Origin: Flavobacteriaceae bacterium PS02334
GTDB lineage: Bacteria; Bacteroidota; Bacteroidia; Flavobacteriales; Flavobacteriaceae
Direction: 5' to 3'
Length of the DNA: 64,000 nt
NCBI GenBank assembly: GCA_029959295.1
Contig: JASCOH010000001.1
Location: forward strand, 558,001 to 622,000
Below the pieces are notes generated by a model that was not told the DNA's origin, ran no database searches, and saw nothing but the letters and a program-made list of their open reading frames with translations. Below are positions 48,053 to 51,842 of this stretch, piece by piece (positions within the stretch are counted from its first letter, which is position 1; each line of letters begins with the position of its first letter). The position numbers were made by a program, and so were the translations under genes.

Positions 48053-48742
48053 TTATTCTTTGGTAAGAAAATCTTCTAATGATTCTTCTCTGGTTTCTTG
48101 CTCTTTTTTATAAAAATTCTTTAGATATTTTTCCAGTCCAAAATACATAATTATGAGCAAGAATAAGATGGTTGCGAAATAATAAGCGCCTCCTAATCCT
48201 ATGGAAATCATGCCCGAACCAACGCCTTCAGCCATGGAAGAAATTGAATTTAATTCATCAGAATTTTTGATAATTATTCCAAAAGCAAGCATGACTAAAA
48301 ATCCTATGACAGAGATAATGATATGAAAAAGTGCTTTTCTTCTTATTTTTACAAAGCTGATAATTAGGCCAATTATTGCCATTAAAAAGGGAGTTCCCAT
48401 CATGATCATCATTGTGATTCTGCTTTGTTTTTCTTGTTGAGTTTCTTCAGGAAGCATTGAATCTTTAGCTTTAATCGGATTGCCACTTTCATCAACAGAG
48501 TCTGGATTTTCAGCCTCGGTTTCAAACAAATCTTTGCCCATTTTTTTCTGCATTCCTTTTACCATTTCGTTATCTTTCATCTTCTCTTTCATGTCAGTTC
48601 CTGAAACATAATCGAATCCTGTTATCGAAGCAAGTTCCGTTGAGCCACATTTTATCGTAATAAATGGAAAGAAAAAACAGATAAGAATCACCGTATAACT
48701 CGGAATTGGAAGTAAATCAGAAATAATCTTGAGTAGTTTCAT
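48053..48742 (-). CDS. Small membrane protein of unknown function
   Basis: I do not recognise this 229-residue protein. It has one hydrophobic segment near residues 12-30, an acidic, lysine- and methionine-rich central stretch (about 50-105), then three hydrophobic segments (about 112-128, 138-158, 180-205) and a charged tail (KKEQETREESLEDFL). Its stop abuts that of the convergent serine hydrolase. A TATGTTTG -7 box lies 27 bases upstream of the ATG. Confidence 0.7.
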   Translation of the reverse strand: MKLLKIISDLLPIPSYTVILICFFFPFITIKCGSTELASITGFDYVSGTDMKEKMKDNEMVKGMQKKMGKDLFETEAENPDSVDESGNPIKAKDSMLPEETQQEKQSRITMMIMMGTPFLMAIIGLIISFVKIRRKALFHIIISVIGFLVMLAFGIIIKNSDELNSISSMAEGVGSGMISIGLGGAYYFATILFLLIIMYFGLEKYLKNFYKKEQETREESLEDFLTKE

Positions 48743-48777: not shown

Positions 48778-48820
48778 CTATTTATATCTTAATATTCTAG
48801 AATTATTTTTCTTTATACTA

Positions 48821-48852
48821 AAAAAGACTGCCAAAATTTCGACAGTCTTTTC
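48821..48852 (-). terminator. Rho-independent terminator of the TPR-prfH-rtcB unit
   Basis: AAAGACTG (48823-48830) and CAGTCTTT (48843-48850) form the stem. It lies eight bases after the stop of the small TPR gene. Confidence 0.8.
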
Positions 48853-48860
48853 TTTAAAAA

Positions 48861-49397
48861 TCATTTTGATTTCTTTTTTGAATCTTTCTTAAATTTCTTC
48901 GGCTTCTTTTTCTTTTTGCCTAAATCAATTTTGCCTCTAATTCGTTTTTCAGCTTCACTAATTTCAGACTCTGAAGTATAATTTATCGAATGAAGTTTAG
49001 CATTTTTAATTTCTTTCAATGCTTTTTTAAACTCCATTTGTACTTCTAAAAGAATCGCTTTGTTGACCAAAATGGTTGCTTTATTGATTCCTTTTATGGT
49101 CAAGGCAAAATCAATTAACTTCTCCGCTTCTTCAAAATCTTCATTCAAAATCAAAGTCTGAAGATAAAACGGATACACTTCTAAAGCATGAATATTTATA
49201 GCCAAAGCTTCCTGAAAGTAGTTCTTTGCTTCTTCATAATTCAATAATTGTTCTGCCTGAATTCTTCCGTAAAGACACAAAACCATTGTGTTTTTAGCAT
49301 CATAAGAAAAAGCATAATCTAAAGATTCAATCGTTTCTTCAAGCGAATATGGATAATTATCCAATGCCTGAAAAACGTATTTATCAATTGTTTTCAT
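48861..49397 (-). CDS. Small TPR-like protein overlapping prfH
   Basis: The 178-residue cytoplasmic protein has two to three TPR-like helix pairs ([79 protein letters not shown]). It ends in a strongly basic tail ([19 protein letters not shown]) suited to RNA binding. It overlaps the 3' end of prfH by 14 bases and sits ahead of the shared terminator, so it is co-transcribed with prfH and rtcB. It may be an adaptor for ribosome or RNA repair, but this is inferred only from context and the tail. Confidence 0.75.
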
Positions 49398-50073
49398 GTC
49401 TCAAATCTGTTTTTAGTTTTTGGCGAATTCCTTTGTAGCTTTTTTCGATTTTATTCTTTTTGAAATCCGTTCCGGTAAACGTTCTTGTTGGATTTCCACG
49501 CTGTATATTCAGTTGGTTTTCCCATTGTTTCCCGACGTGATTTTTGAGCTGTTGCAAAGTTTCGCCTTCCAATTTTTTTAATAATCGCTCTGTTGCCAAT
49601 TTTTTGTTTTGGTGTTGCGAACGGTTGTCCATCGCCACTACTGCAATTCCAGTTGGAATATGCGTTGCCCGAATTGCCGAACTCACTTTGTTCACGTGCT
49701 GTCCTCCTGCTCCCGAACTTCGCATTGCTTGATATTGAATATCATTTTCTGAAATCTCTGAATTTTTCTGCTTTTCAATTTCAAAGATTCCGATGAACCA
49801 ATTCTTGCGTTTGTGCATTTTCCGAAACTGGCTTTGTCCAATCCATTGAATTGTTCCCAACCAAGAATTCACAAATTCGTCAGCATTTTTTCCTTTGACA
49901 GAAATCGTTGCCGTTTCCACGGTTCCATTTTCAGAACCCGTTTCTCTTTGCAATACAATCGTTTCCAAACTGTGTTCTTGCGCTTCTTCCAAAACTTTTT
50001 TAAGCACTTGGGCGACAACCCAAGTGCATTCTGCAGGTCCTCGACCTGCTGTTATTTGAATTATTTTTTCCAT
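49384..50073 (-). CDS. prfH: Peptide chain release factor-like protein PrfH
   Basis: The 229-residue protein has the peptidyl-hydrolase motif [18 protein letters not shown] (GGQ at 123-125) and a C-terminal basic tail, but lacks the N-terminal helical domain and the stop-codon recognition domain of RF1/RF2. The N-terminal part begins [27 protein letters not shown], typical of PrfH. PrfH is encoded with RtcB-type ligases; such pairs have been reported to act on ribosomes cleaved in the 16S decoding centre. The start is 12 bases after the rtcB stop. Confidence 0.92.
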
Positions 50074-50085
50074 TTTCTTTTATTT

Positions 50086-51477
50086 TTATCGATCCATTCT
50101 CACGATTTTAGGCGTGAATGTTCCAAGTATTTCGACCAATTCTGTCTGGTTTGCCATCACTTTTGTAATGTCTTTGTATGCCATTGGCGCTTCGTCGATA
50201 TTCCCTCCAATTAACGTGACATCGTTTGCTTGCAAGACTTTTTTAATTTCGCTTTGCGTAAAAGTACTTTTGCATTTCGCTCTTGAAAATAATCTTCCTG
50301 CTCCATGAGAAGCGGAATTCAAACTCGCTGCATTTCCTTTGCCCCGAACAATGTAACCTGGTGCGGTCATCGAACTTGGAATGATTCCCAATTGTCCTTC
50401 TCCAGCTGGCGTTGCACCTTTTCTGTGAACGATACATTCCTTGCCGTTAACCATTTCTTTCCACGCAAAATTGTGGTGGTTTTCAATATTTACGACGATT
50501 CTTTTCCCGAGTTCTTTGGCTATTCTTCGGTGAATATCGTCGTGGCAAGCCTTTGCATATTCTCCGGCTAAATTCATAGCCAACCAATATTCTTGCCCGT
50601 CGTGCGTGTTCAAATCGAGCCAAGCTAAATGCTGTACATTCTTTGGCAACGGACAATGTTTTGTGGCCAAATATGTGTAATGTTTTGCAATATTGGCTCC
50701 CAAACCACGTGAACCGCTATGCGAAAGAACTGCGAAATATTCACCTTTTTCTAACTTCCATTCGTTTAACGGATTGTCAATTTTCACGATTCCGAATTCG
50801 ACGAAATGGTTTCCTCCACCAGAACTTCCCAACTGTTTATAAGCTTTTGGCAAAAGACTTTTCAGTAACGGTATGTCTTGAAATTCACTTTTGTAAAAAA
50901 CTTCATGATCGGCTTTTACGGCGTGCGTTTCTTTCATCCCAAATTTTGTATTGTCTTTCAAAATAGCCTGCAACTGGTGGTCTTTTCCTTTCAAAAAAGA
51001 AGCTGGCAAATCAAAAATCGAAAGGCTCATTCGGCAACCGATGTCAACCCCAACTCCATACGGAATCACGGCATTGTCTGTCGCTAAAACCCCGCCAATT
51101 GGTAATCCGTAACCTGAATGTGCGTCTGGCATTAAAGCTCCAGCTACTGAAATCGGAAGTTTTAATGAATCATACAATTGAAATTTGGCTTGCTCGTCGA
51201 TTTCATTTTCTCCAAAAATCGTGAACGGAACTCTTGTCGTTTTCAATTGGTGCATTCTCACTTGAACTGGCTTGATCAAACCTTCAGCGACTTTGCCCCA
51301 CGTTCCGTGACCTTCAAATTTTTCGGGAGAAAGCAAAACCTCTTTAGCTTCCGTCAGAATTGATTCTTTTTTTTCTCTTTTTCTGTATCTATTTATTTGC
51401 CCTAGGGCGATATTTATTGAATTGTTTTTTGGAAAACCCAATTTAATCAGGTCTTTTCCAGATAATTTATTTCCCAT
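50086..51477 (-). CDS. rtcB: RtcB-type RNA ligase (PrfH-linked)
   Basis: The 463-residue GTP- and Mn-dependent ligase joins 2',3'-cyclic phosphate and 5'-OH RNA ends. Metal and catalytic residues are in place: Asp145 and Cys148 (GVGVDIGCRM), His224 (GGGNHF), His253 (LSHSGSRG), His335 (ENHHN) and the guanylylated His391 (ASHGAGR). The motif reads DIGCRM where canonical RtcB usually has DIGCGM, consistent with a divergent, PrfH-associated branch. ATG at 51477 is the only sensible start. It is first in a three-gene unit with prfH and the small TPR gene. A perfect palindrome lies about 94 bases upstream. Confidence 0.95.
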   Translation of the reverse strand: MGNKLSGKDLIKLGFPKNNSINIALGQINRYRKREKKESILTEAKEVLLSPEKFEGHGTWGKVAEGLIKPVQVRMHQLKTTRVPFTIFGENEIDEQAKFQLYDSLKLPISVAGALMPDAHSGYGLPIGGVLATDNAVIPYGVGVDIGCRMSLSIFDLPASFLKGKDHQLQAILKDNTKFGMKETHAVKADHEVFYKSEFQDIPLLKSLLPKAYKQLGSSGGGNHFVEFGIVKIDNPLNEWKLEKGEYFAVLSHSGSRGLGANIAKHYTYLATKHCPLPKNVQHLAWLDLNTHDGQEYWLAMNLAGEYAKACHDDIHRRIAKELGKRIVVNIENHHNFAWKEMVNGKECIVHRKGATPAGEGQLGIIPSSMTAPGYIVRGKGNAASLNSASHGAGRLFSRAKCKSTFTQSEIKKVLQANDVTLIGGNIDEAPMAYKDITKVMANQTELVEILGTFTPKIVRMDR

Positions 51478-51570: not shown

Positions 51571-51589
51571 TTTATCCAATCTGGATAAA
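51571..51589. promoter_or_regulatory. Perfect palindrome upstream of rtcB, possible operator
   Basis: TTTATCCA (51571-51578) and TGGATAAA (51582-51589) are perfect 8-base inverted arms around ATC. The site is symmetrical, short-spaced and 94 bases ahead of the rtcB start, which suits a dimeric repressor. No regulator gene is adjacent. Confidence 0.4.
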
Positions 51590-51631
51590 TAAAGGGACTG
51601 CCTTTCGGGAAAATTTTGAAGTGTCTAGAAT

Positions 51632-51667
51632 AAAAAAAGCCCGAAACTAAATGTCTTCGGGCTTTTT
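51632..51667 (-). terminator. Rho-independent terminator of the small-ORF unit
   Basis: AAGCCCGAA and TTCGGGCTT form the stem, with seven A at 51632 becoming the T tract on the minus strand. It lies 21 bases after the stop of the 27-codon ORF and no other gene on that strand lies just upstream. Confidence 0.85.
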
Positions 51668-51688
51668 CATATATCTAAATTTGTTTTT

Positions 51689-51772
51689 CTAAGATTGAAA
51701 TAAACCACGAAGAAGCGTTGCACCTAATCCTGTTGGTGTGAAGCTTTGAAATGATGATGCAAGTACAAACAT
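51689..51772 (-). CDS. 27-residue small ORF in its own transcription unit
   Basis: The ORF encodes a 27-residue peptide starting MFVLASSFQSFTPTGLGATL and ending in Ser before TAG. It is framed by a promoter-like pair upstream (51810-51842, TTTG, 21-base spacer, AATATTTG) and a strong terminator 21 bases downstream, giving a predicted transcript of about 170 bases. The peptide is uncharged apart from one Arg and has no signal peptide or membrane helix. It could be a real small protein, a leader-type ORF, or a chance frame in a small RNA. I do not recognise a family. Confidence 0.45.
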   Translation of the reverse strand: MFVLASSFQSFTPTGLGATLLRGLFQS

Positions 51773-51809
51773 TTTTCTTCGTTTTAAAGTGTTATTAATT
51801 TTTCGTCTG

Positions 51810-51842
51810 CAAATATTTAGAATACTTTTTGAATATTCCAAA
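51810..51842 (-). promoter_or_regulatory. Promoter of the small-ORF unit
   Basis: On the minus strand, TTTG (51842-51839), a 21-base spacer and AATATTTG (51817-51810) fit the Bacteroidetes promoter with one mismatch in the -7 box. The small ORF starts 38 bases downstream. Confidence 0.45.

Follow-up and report, generated by a model that had tools for sequence, protein, structure and literature searches.

A putative translation-damage response operon of rtcB, prfH and a TPR gene in Flavobacteriaceae

Background

What switches on a ribosome-repair operon when translation fails, and what does a small tetratricopeptide repeat (TPR) protein do in it? Both questions are raised by a locus of Flavobacteriaceae bacterium PS02334, in which the genes for the RNA ligase RtcB and release factor H (PrfH) are followed by a TPR gene. 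The locus lies in a stretch of 64,000 nucleotides (GenBank assembly GCA_029959295.1, contig JASCOH010000001.1, positions 558,001 to 622,000), referred to here as the window. We think it fairly probable that this is a translation-damage response operon, in which a leader attenuator would turn the genes on when translation fails, PrfH and RtcB would carry out the repair, and the TPR protein would be a recurring accessory or scaffold of the RtcB module. Gene order, conservation, complementarity, covariation and predicted folds are read from the DNA, and from them we infer the ON/OFF logic and the role of the TPR protein.

In E. coli ATCC 25922, an RtcB2-PrfH module is reported to release and reseal 16S rRNA that has been cut by colicin E3 (PMC9223846; this paper and the others cited by PMC number are drawn on in part). 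Operons of release factor H (RFH) and RtcB have been described with a TPR gene, a Pol-beta nucleotidyltransferase (NTase) and charged proteins as accessories, and an Rqc1-like scaffold was suggested (Burroughs & Aravind 2019, PMC6514570). An earlier reading of the window, made from the letters alone (the sequence-only reading), had held that the TPR protein has no assigned role, which the accessory or scaffold idea in that paper contradicts. No sensor for induction is given in the published descriptions of PrfH-RtcB, in the parts used here. The Salmonella rtcBA operon responds to broken tRNAs via RtcR (PMC7790460).

Relatives were searched in samples of genomes, with a limited set of first-look candidates scored (for example, eight per genome in the 395-genome phylum sample). 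Loci and genomes carry the labels L and G; f1 is the family of the window and f2 its sister family.

The rtcB-prfH-TPR operon

The three genes lie on the minus strand in the order rtcB-prfH-TPR, with 12 bases between rtcB and prfH and a 14-base overlap between prfH and the TPR gene. This layout, the basic tail of the TPR protein and the shared terminator had been pointed out in the sequence-only reading, and the coordinates and folds agree (Table 1). Its naming of rtcB-prfH as a repair pair also stands, as PrfH passes the NCBIfam equivalog TIGR03072 (235.4 bits against a cut-off of 166.65) and RtcB passes Pfam PF01139 (274 bits against 27). The GGQ catalytic motif of PrfH is found at residue 123, and a solved relative (9mor/9mq4) aligns up to residue 224, basic tail included. 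RtcB contains all of the motifs PDAH, DIGCR, GGGNHF, SHSGSRG and SHGAGR, which we take to be catalytic. It misses the cut-off of TIGR03073, the model of release-factor-linked RtcB (RtcB2), with 133.1 bits against 271.8, and is therefore classed here as RtcB, not RtcB2. PADLOC returned no match for the rtcB, prfH or TPR products at E 0.001. The span proposed earlier, 48861..51477, takes in the three genes correctly; it stops at the start of rtcB, so that the conserved leader at 51571-51842 was missed.

A leader region conserved before repair loci

In 27 aligned loci, the first operon gene is preceded by a promoter-like element, a 27-codon open reading frame (ORF), a terminator, a conserved spacer and an inverted repeat, and this order is kept also where another gene precedes rtcB. 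The flavobacterial -7 consensus, with which the promoter-like element was compared, is TAnnTTTG (PMC9723704). A scan with the sigma-70 consensus found 21 sites against 15.3 expected and was put aside. The putative leader ORF appears conserved in its start, its stop and its L-R codons, and the block CTTCGTGG is in frame in 27/27 loci, which were chosen by the terminator and repeat region, a region that excludes the block. The leader has no run of one regulatory codon. Because no codon run marks it as an amino-acid sensor, translation itself would be the likely signal. At the leader, no Rfam family reaches its gathering score (best E 0.024), and a known Rfam element was rejected on that ground.

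Apart from that of the window, 12 loci carry exact copies of the inverted repeat ahead of the first gene of the operon (two of them, L016 and L234, from one species). The repeat occurs once in the genome, as does a reversed control pattern; its uniqueness was therefore rejected as proof, and only its conserved place counts. It could be an operator or an RNA hairpin.

A covariance model of the leader had its best match at the repair locus in seven of eight whole genomes, namely those of the window, G103, G340, G507 (from f2), G437, G300 and G354; in G354 the leader lies directly before the TPR gene of a tRNA-slipin-RtcB locus. The exception was G024, with a PcfJ locus. In the genome of the window, where 150 of 5086 candidates were scored, the leader reached 165 bits, the next among the matches listed 39 and the next full-length one 35. 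Across 57 sources, the model gave 36 full-length rows at E <=0.001, from 34 distinct loci, one of which (L119) was already in its alignment. The predicted peptides vary, with the LR near the end kept in all of the 34 loci except L176 and L177 (LQ) and mostly followed by G or D. Matches of 33-37 bits (L126, L181, L218 and L289) are near the terminator-only background and are counted because the ORF with LR is in place. Such putative leaders thus precede repair loci in two families and across genera.

The close leader set shows no covariation. A set called A4, of 30 leaders, was chosen by a pattern that required CTTCGTGG and AAGCCCG. Since the close set is invariant and A4 was chosen by these very blocks, the test was moved to diverged leaders. 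The parser recognised rows by CTTC[GA] and CG[AG]AG and lost none of them; two antisense rows of 55 were dropped, leaving 53 leaders. The outer five antiterminator pairs are formed in 233 of 265 cells, a count reached by 0 of 5000 shuffles, and slid pairings give 89-141. For the 33 leaders outside the alignment of the model, the count is 136/165 (again 0/5000). The strands change together, as in GGCTT/AAGCC/GGGCTT, GGTTT/AAACC/GGGTTT, GACTT/AAGTC/GGACTT and GATTA/AAATC/GGATTT, and the leader strand covaries with both terminator arms. In the predicted nascent fold, before the 3' arm is made, the antiterminator core is present in 53/53 leaders; with the RNA masked to just past the stop codon, the terminator is predicted in 53/53. 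From complementarity, covariation and these predicted folds, the candidate antiterminator and terminator are mutually exclusive. Over the 53 leaders, the hairpin in the middle of the ORF has a mean fold z of -1.89, and 43 of them are below -1.

The TPR gene and its partners

The sequence-only reading had left open whether the TPR gene is a local addition, and had proposed a survey of flavobacterial prfH-rtcB loci in which it might prove a chance neighbour. Neither description survives. In a genus sample of 199 genomes, PrfH was above the cut-off in at least 62 (63 loci) and the TPR protein was found in 66. Among the matches listed there, the TPR gene lies directly downstream of prfH on the same strand at 58 of the 63 PrfH loci, on which count a chance neighbour was rejected; by the models, the spacing is as in the window in 35 of these 58, the five loci lacking it are in G175, G020, G123, G076 and G158, and nine genomes have the TPR protein with PrfH below the cut-off. 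In f2, all eight TPR loci are RtcB-PrfH-TPR. The TPR protein had 33 matches at 1e-15 in the 395-genome phylum sample, 29 strong (>=189 bits) and four weak (<=75 bits), and all 29 strong ones fall in f1 or f2. In another phylum sample, of 296 genomes, 20 of the 22 with PrfH belong to these two families; two PrfH loci outside them (L285, L286) are RtcB-PrfH with no TPR gene. The TPR loci from named records are Flavobacterium in 20 of 23 cases, and at one of these the TPR protein is the same as that in a genome of the genus of the window. A phage or plasmid home for the gene was rejected: at E 1e-3 the family matched nothing among 50,697 phage and 72,556 plasmid records, and of 17 pattern matches in viral contigs not one could be confirmed.

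The family sample (299 genomes) extends this picture beyond PrfH. The TPR protein was found in 55 genomes, PrfH in 22 and RtcB in 64; every genome with PrfH also encodes RtcB, 20 of these 22 encode the TPR protein, and 35 of the 55 TPR genomes have no PrfH at all. In genomes free of PrfH, RtcB is present in 19/35 with the TPR protein versus 23/242 without it (p 4e-9). RtcB lies within 7.5 kb of the TPR gene in 34 of the 55, on the same strand in 34/34, and 16 TPR genes are near an RtcB with no adjoining PrfH. For example, PcfJ-RtcB-TPR loci were seen (L108-L113, L128, L129 and L142), as were loci with a WYL gene, the TPR gene, a tRNA gene, slipin and a divergent RtcB (L138, L139, L140 and L153; L125 is the same without slipin). 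In L164 (= L107), the order is RtcB-TPR-PrfH, and this PrfH is of a different, tail-less kind. In a tree of 101 TPR proteins, the PrfH-linked members fall in separate clades, and linkage to PrfH changes at least 10 times. The PrfH-free loci with RtcB, the strand agreement and these changes in the tree indicate that RtcB is, as judged from gene neighbourhoods, the more constant partner of the TPR protein. It looks like a recurring component of modules built on RtcB, whether PrfH is present or not, and the search for its partner shifts accordingly from PrfH to RtcB.

The TPR protein itself is below the Pfam gathering scores, with TPR_1 the best at 23.6 bits against 27.8 (E 4e-5, which is significant); the profile of the family (A2) does match TPR chains of solved structure, the best being an engineered chain (E 5e-15). 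The last 25 residues have a mean charge of +9.5 over 97 distinct members, and a tail charge of at least +6 is found in 78/97 members versus 8/359 neighbour proteins. The body carries a net negative charge (mean -6.2). The protein is probably a scaffold for RtcB, and for PrfH where present, with the lysine tail touching RNA and the TPR body docking.

tRNA arrays and slipin in relatives

In the family tally of 53 TPR loci, which left out that of the window and G231 (a 46-bit match), a tRNA gene lies within 4 kb of the TPR gene in 25 and at least three tRNA genes in 13, with arrays of up to 17 tRNA genes right after the TPR gene. In G300, ARAGORN found 15 tRNA genes at the locus, and the whole genome has 52 tRNA matches. 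Compared with housekeeping tRNAs of the same anticodon, array tRNAs show 48-66% identity in 15 pairs from G300 and G437 (L177 and L178), a comparison that covers 15 of the 32 tRNAs of the two loci and part of the housekeeping set. These diverged arrays beside the TPR gene suggest that spare tRNAs may be part of the same response. By ARAGORN the 64-kb window is free of tRNA genes, as are 23/23 named-record loci (stretches of mostly 5 kb on each side) and eight f2 loci (11-17 kb each).

L177, L178, L180 (= L165), L136, L183 (= L135), L185, L225 and L226 have arrays of 10-17 tRNA genes close to the TPR gene or prfH, several of the arrays being followed by slipin.

Proposed mechanism and alternatives

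In a healthy cell, ribosomes would complete the leader and cover the CTT-CGT-GG block at its 3' end; with the block covered, the terminator would form and the operon would be off. If ribosomes were cut, stalled or missing, the block would be free to pair with the 5' arm of the terminator, and the antiterminator so formed would let RNA polymerase continue into the operon. On the damaged ribosome PrfH would then free the peptide, and RtcB would reseal the cut 16S rRNA, as reported for the E. coli module. The TPR protein may act as a scaffold, its lysine tail holding RNA and its body docking RtcB, together with PrfH where present. If this is true, a conserved leader-peptide attenuator would sense failing translation directly and link it to the repair of ribosomes.

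Several points weigh against this proposal. The invariance and pair counts of A4 are partly by construction, as its pattern required the blocks in question, and the inner antiterminator pairs, formed in 263/265 cells, are not an independent count because rows were parsed by those motifs. Relatedness is not taken into account by the antiterminator shuffles; when each distinct strand set is represented once (20 sets), the outer pairs number 78/100 and 13 of 5000 shuffles reach that count. The outer pairs are weak in some leaders, with 2/5 formed in L117, L118, L120 and L175 and 3/5 in L119, L173, L126 and L289. The predicted full-length fold favours the terminator in 51 of the 53 leaders; the ON state would thus depend on kinetics, a preference as expected of a kinetic switch. 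The leader model gave no convincing match at the PcfJ-RtcB-TPR loci L108-L113, at the second rtcB of the genome (L162) or at L285 and L286. As to the TPR protein, four genus loci (L117-L120) have the leader, rtcB and prfH with the TPR gene missing, the TPR gene is away from RtcB in 21 of the 55 genomes of the family sample (slipin or tRNA genes are still near some of these), and at 11 of the 53 loci checked the TPR gene has no partner of the module. The scaffold role appears to be the weakest step of the explanation.

Loci of this last kind, and the fact that TPR genes are common, would fit a TPR gene that is a mere passenger or chance neighbour. We consider this most improbable, in view of the count of 58/63 among the genus matches listed, the agreement of all 34 RtcB-proximal genes with the RtcB strand and the retention of the TPR gene while linkage to PrfH changes repeatedly. 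It is unlikely, too, that the TPR protein is a dedicated PrfH partner, whose groove would bind the basic C-terminal tail of PrfH and recruit it to damaged ribosomes. Nearly all PrfH proteins that adjoin the TPR gene do end in a basic tail, of the KSYKxxRQKLKxDL type; the tail is missing in L117-L120 and in the two loci outside the families, all of them TPR-free; and the acidic TPR body would suit such binding. However, the tail is also present where the genome has no TPR match (L105, L106 and L287), and the TPR gene adjoins a tail-less PrfH in L107 and one with a shortened tail in L043. With 35/55 TPR genomes free of PrfH and 16 TPR genes near a PrfH-free RtcB, the protein is not an adaptor for PrfH alone, and PrfH as its sole partner was rejected.

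We give no more credence to the idea that the TPR protein serves tRNAs instead of ribosomes, handling the products of the tRNA genes behind it or bringing broken tRNAs to RtcB. The tRNA genes at 25/53 loci, the arrays of up to 17 and the lysine tail speak for this role, which is doubtful given that no tRNA genes were found in the window, the named-record loci or the f2 loci searched. Turning to the leader, its ORF and terminator might be a separate small gene, with the promoter of the operon below the terminator and perhaps a repressor at the inverted repeat 51571-51589, which does hold its place before the first operon gene. This is quite improbable, since leader and operon keep together in different genera and in two families, and the coding strand of the leader covaries with both terminator arms, for which a separate gene would have no need. 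Keeping to a translation-reading attenuator, we put forward tentatively, as a possibility, that an entire family of flavobacterial translation-repair loci (RtcB, PrfH, TPR, NTases, slipin and spare diverged tRNAs) shares such a leader switch. Ribosomes whose damage keeps them from completing about 27 codons would free the antiterminator, so that damage would induce its own repair, and the TPR protein would be the common hub through which RtcB reaches cut rRNA or tRNA.

Relation to known systems

Transcription attenuators with leader peptides, of the trp type, consist like the region described here of a short ORF, an antiterminator and an intrinsic terminator. The leader in the window differs in that it has no regulatory codon run and the controlled genes look like ribosome or RNA repair genes. 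Leader-peptide attenuators are reported to precede amino-acid operons of Flavobacterium psychrophilum (PMC9723704), a paper in whose main text rtcB is absent. The E. coli RtcB2-PrfH module shares with the window an RtcB ligase and PrfH in one operon (PMC9223846), whereas the RtcB of the window fails TIGR03073 and its PrfH has an extra basic tail; 'TPR' is absent from the main text of that paper. The window also resembles the RFH-RtcB operons of PMC6514570 in having a TPR gene, a likeness at the level of gene content. The section on accessories in that paper mentions no leader, tRNA arrays, slipin or TPR-RtcB without PrfH.

In Anabaena, the trn operon and TrcR regulon bring together a silent tRNA array, rtcB and slipin, which react jointly when translation is under stress or TrcR is lost (PMC10272220). 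The same parts meet in one locus in several relatives of the window. The Anabaena genes, as described in the portion of the paper used, are scattered, under a ribbon-helix-helix (RHH) repressor and with no leader described, whereas in the relatives they are linked, often with a WYL gene and a leader.

From the parts of these papers used, a TPR accessory of RFH-RtcB and the suggestion that it is a scaffold are already known (PMC6514570), as is leader-peptide attenuation as such, also in Flavobacterium (PMC9723704). Apparently new are the leader, the tRNA arrays and the spread of the TPR gene where PrfH is missing: a leader peptide at prfH-rtcB and tRNA arrays with PrfH-RtcB-TPR were not found in literature titles and abstract openings, bioRxiv, subscription papers and supplements aside, and the TPR spread did not turn up in the same literature.

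Feature coordinates and minor observations

The features are collected in Table 1. A consensus terminator scan of the window lists neither the hairpin at 48820-48850 nor the leader terminator, and both rest on folds.

Table 1. Positions in the window of the operon genes and of the elements of the leader region
Feature	Position	Strand	Remarks
rtcB	50086..51477	-	RNA ligase, 463 aa; PF01139 274 bits
prfH	49384..50073	-	Release factor H, 229 aa; GGQ and basic C-terminal tail
TPR gene	48861..49397	-	178 aa; TPR-like body and lysine-rich tail
Operon-end terminator hairpin	48820..48850	-	Fold -17.6 kcal/mol, z -5.5
Promoter-like element TTTGG-N-TATTTGC	51809..51842	-	Aligned in 27 loci; one mismatch to TAnnTTTG (AATATTTG)
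Leader ORF, 27 codons, MFVLASSFQSFTPTGLGATLLRGLFQS	51689..51772	-	In-frame block CTT CGT GG in 27/27 loci
Hairpin inside leader ORF, possible pause hairpin	51721..51738	-	Fold z -1.1 in the window
Antiterminator strand CTTCG-T-GGTTT, inside leader ORF	51702..51712	-	Complementary to 51655-51664 bar one bulge; outer five pairs covary
Intrinsic terminator and T tract	51632..51664	-	5' arm AAGCCCGAAG (51655-51664) shared with antiterminator
Inverted repeat TTTATCC-AGATT-GGATAAA, before first operon gene	51571..51589	-	Exact matches in relatives

Beyond the operon terminator, a gene of 229 aa (window 48053-48742) with weak Pfam matches only follows on the same strand; unlike it, the next gene is convergent in 18 of the 23 named-record loci. 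The genome of the window has one match to the TPR family. At a distance of about 117 kb there is another rtcB (L162, C11:484000-497000 of the same genome), with a divergent WYL gene, one for an NTase and one for a 624-aa protein close by; the TPR gene, PrfH and a leader match are all absent within the 13 kb of that locus.

The basic C-terminal tail of PrfH (window 49384-49460) is usual in both families; L107 is without it, and the solved PrfH structures 9mor and 9mq4 have it. Between the leader and rtcB, a charged protein (cluster C69, at most about 265 aa) is encoded in L014-L019, L025, L178, L180, L181, L185 and L225; its matches are strong in other genera and weak inside the genus. Several members of the genus, G049 (L231), G063, G792 and G655, encode another TPR protein, a weaker match (62-72 bits), some 8-9 kb away from the operon. 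In L121 (= L023), prfH and rtcB are each in two pieces, and in L112 rtcB is in three; these are broken genes or assembly errors. Near an RtcB-PrfH-TPR-slipin locus, there is an ORF (L163:13547-14001) whose start, in our estimation, resembles a Cas9 RuvC segment.

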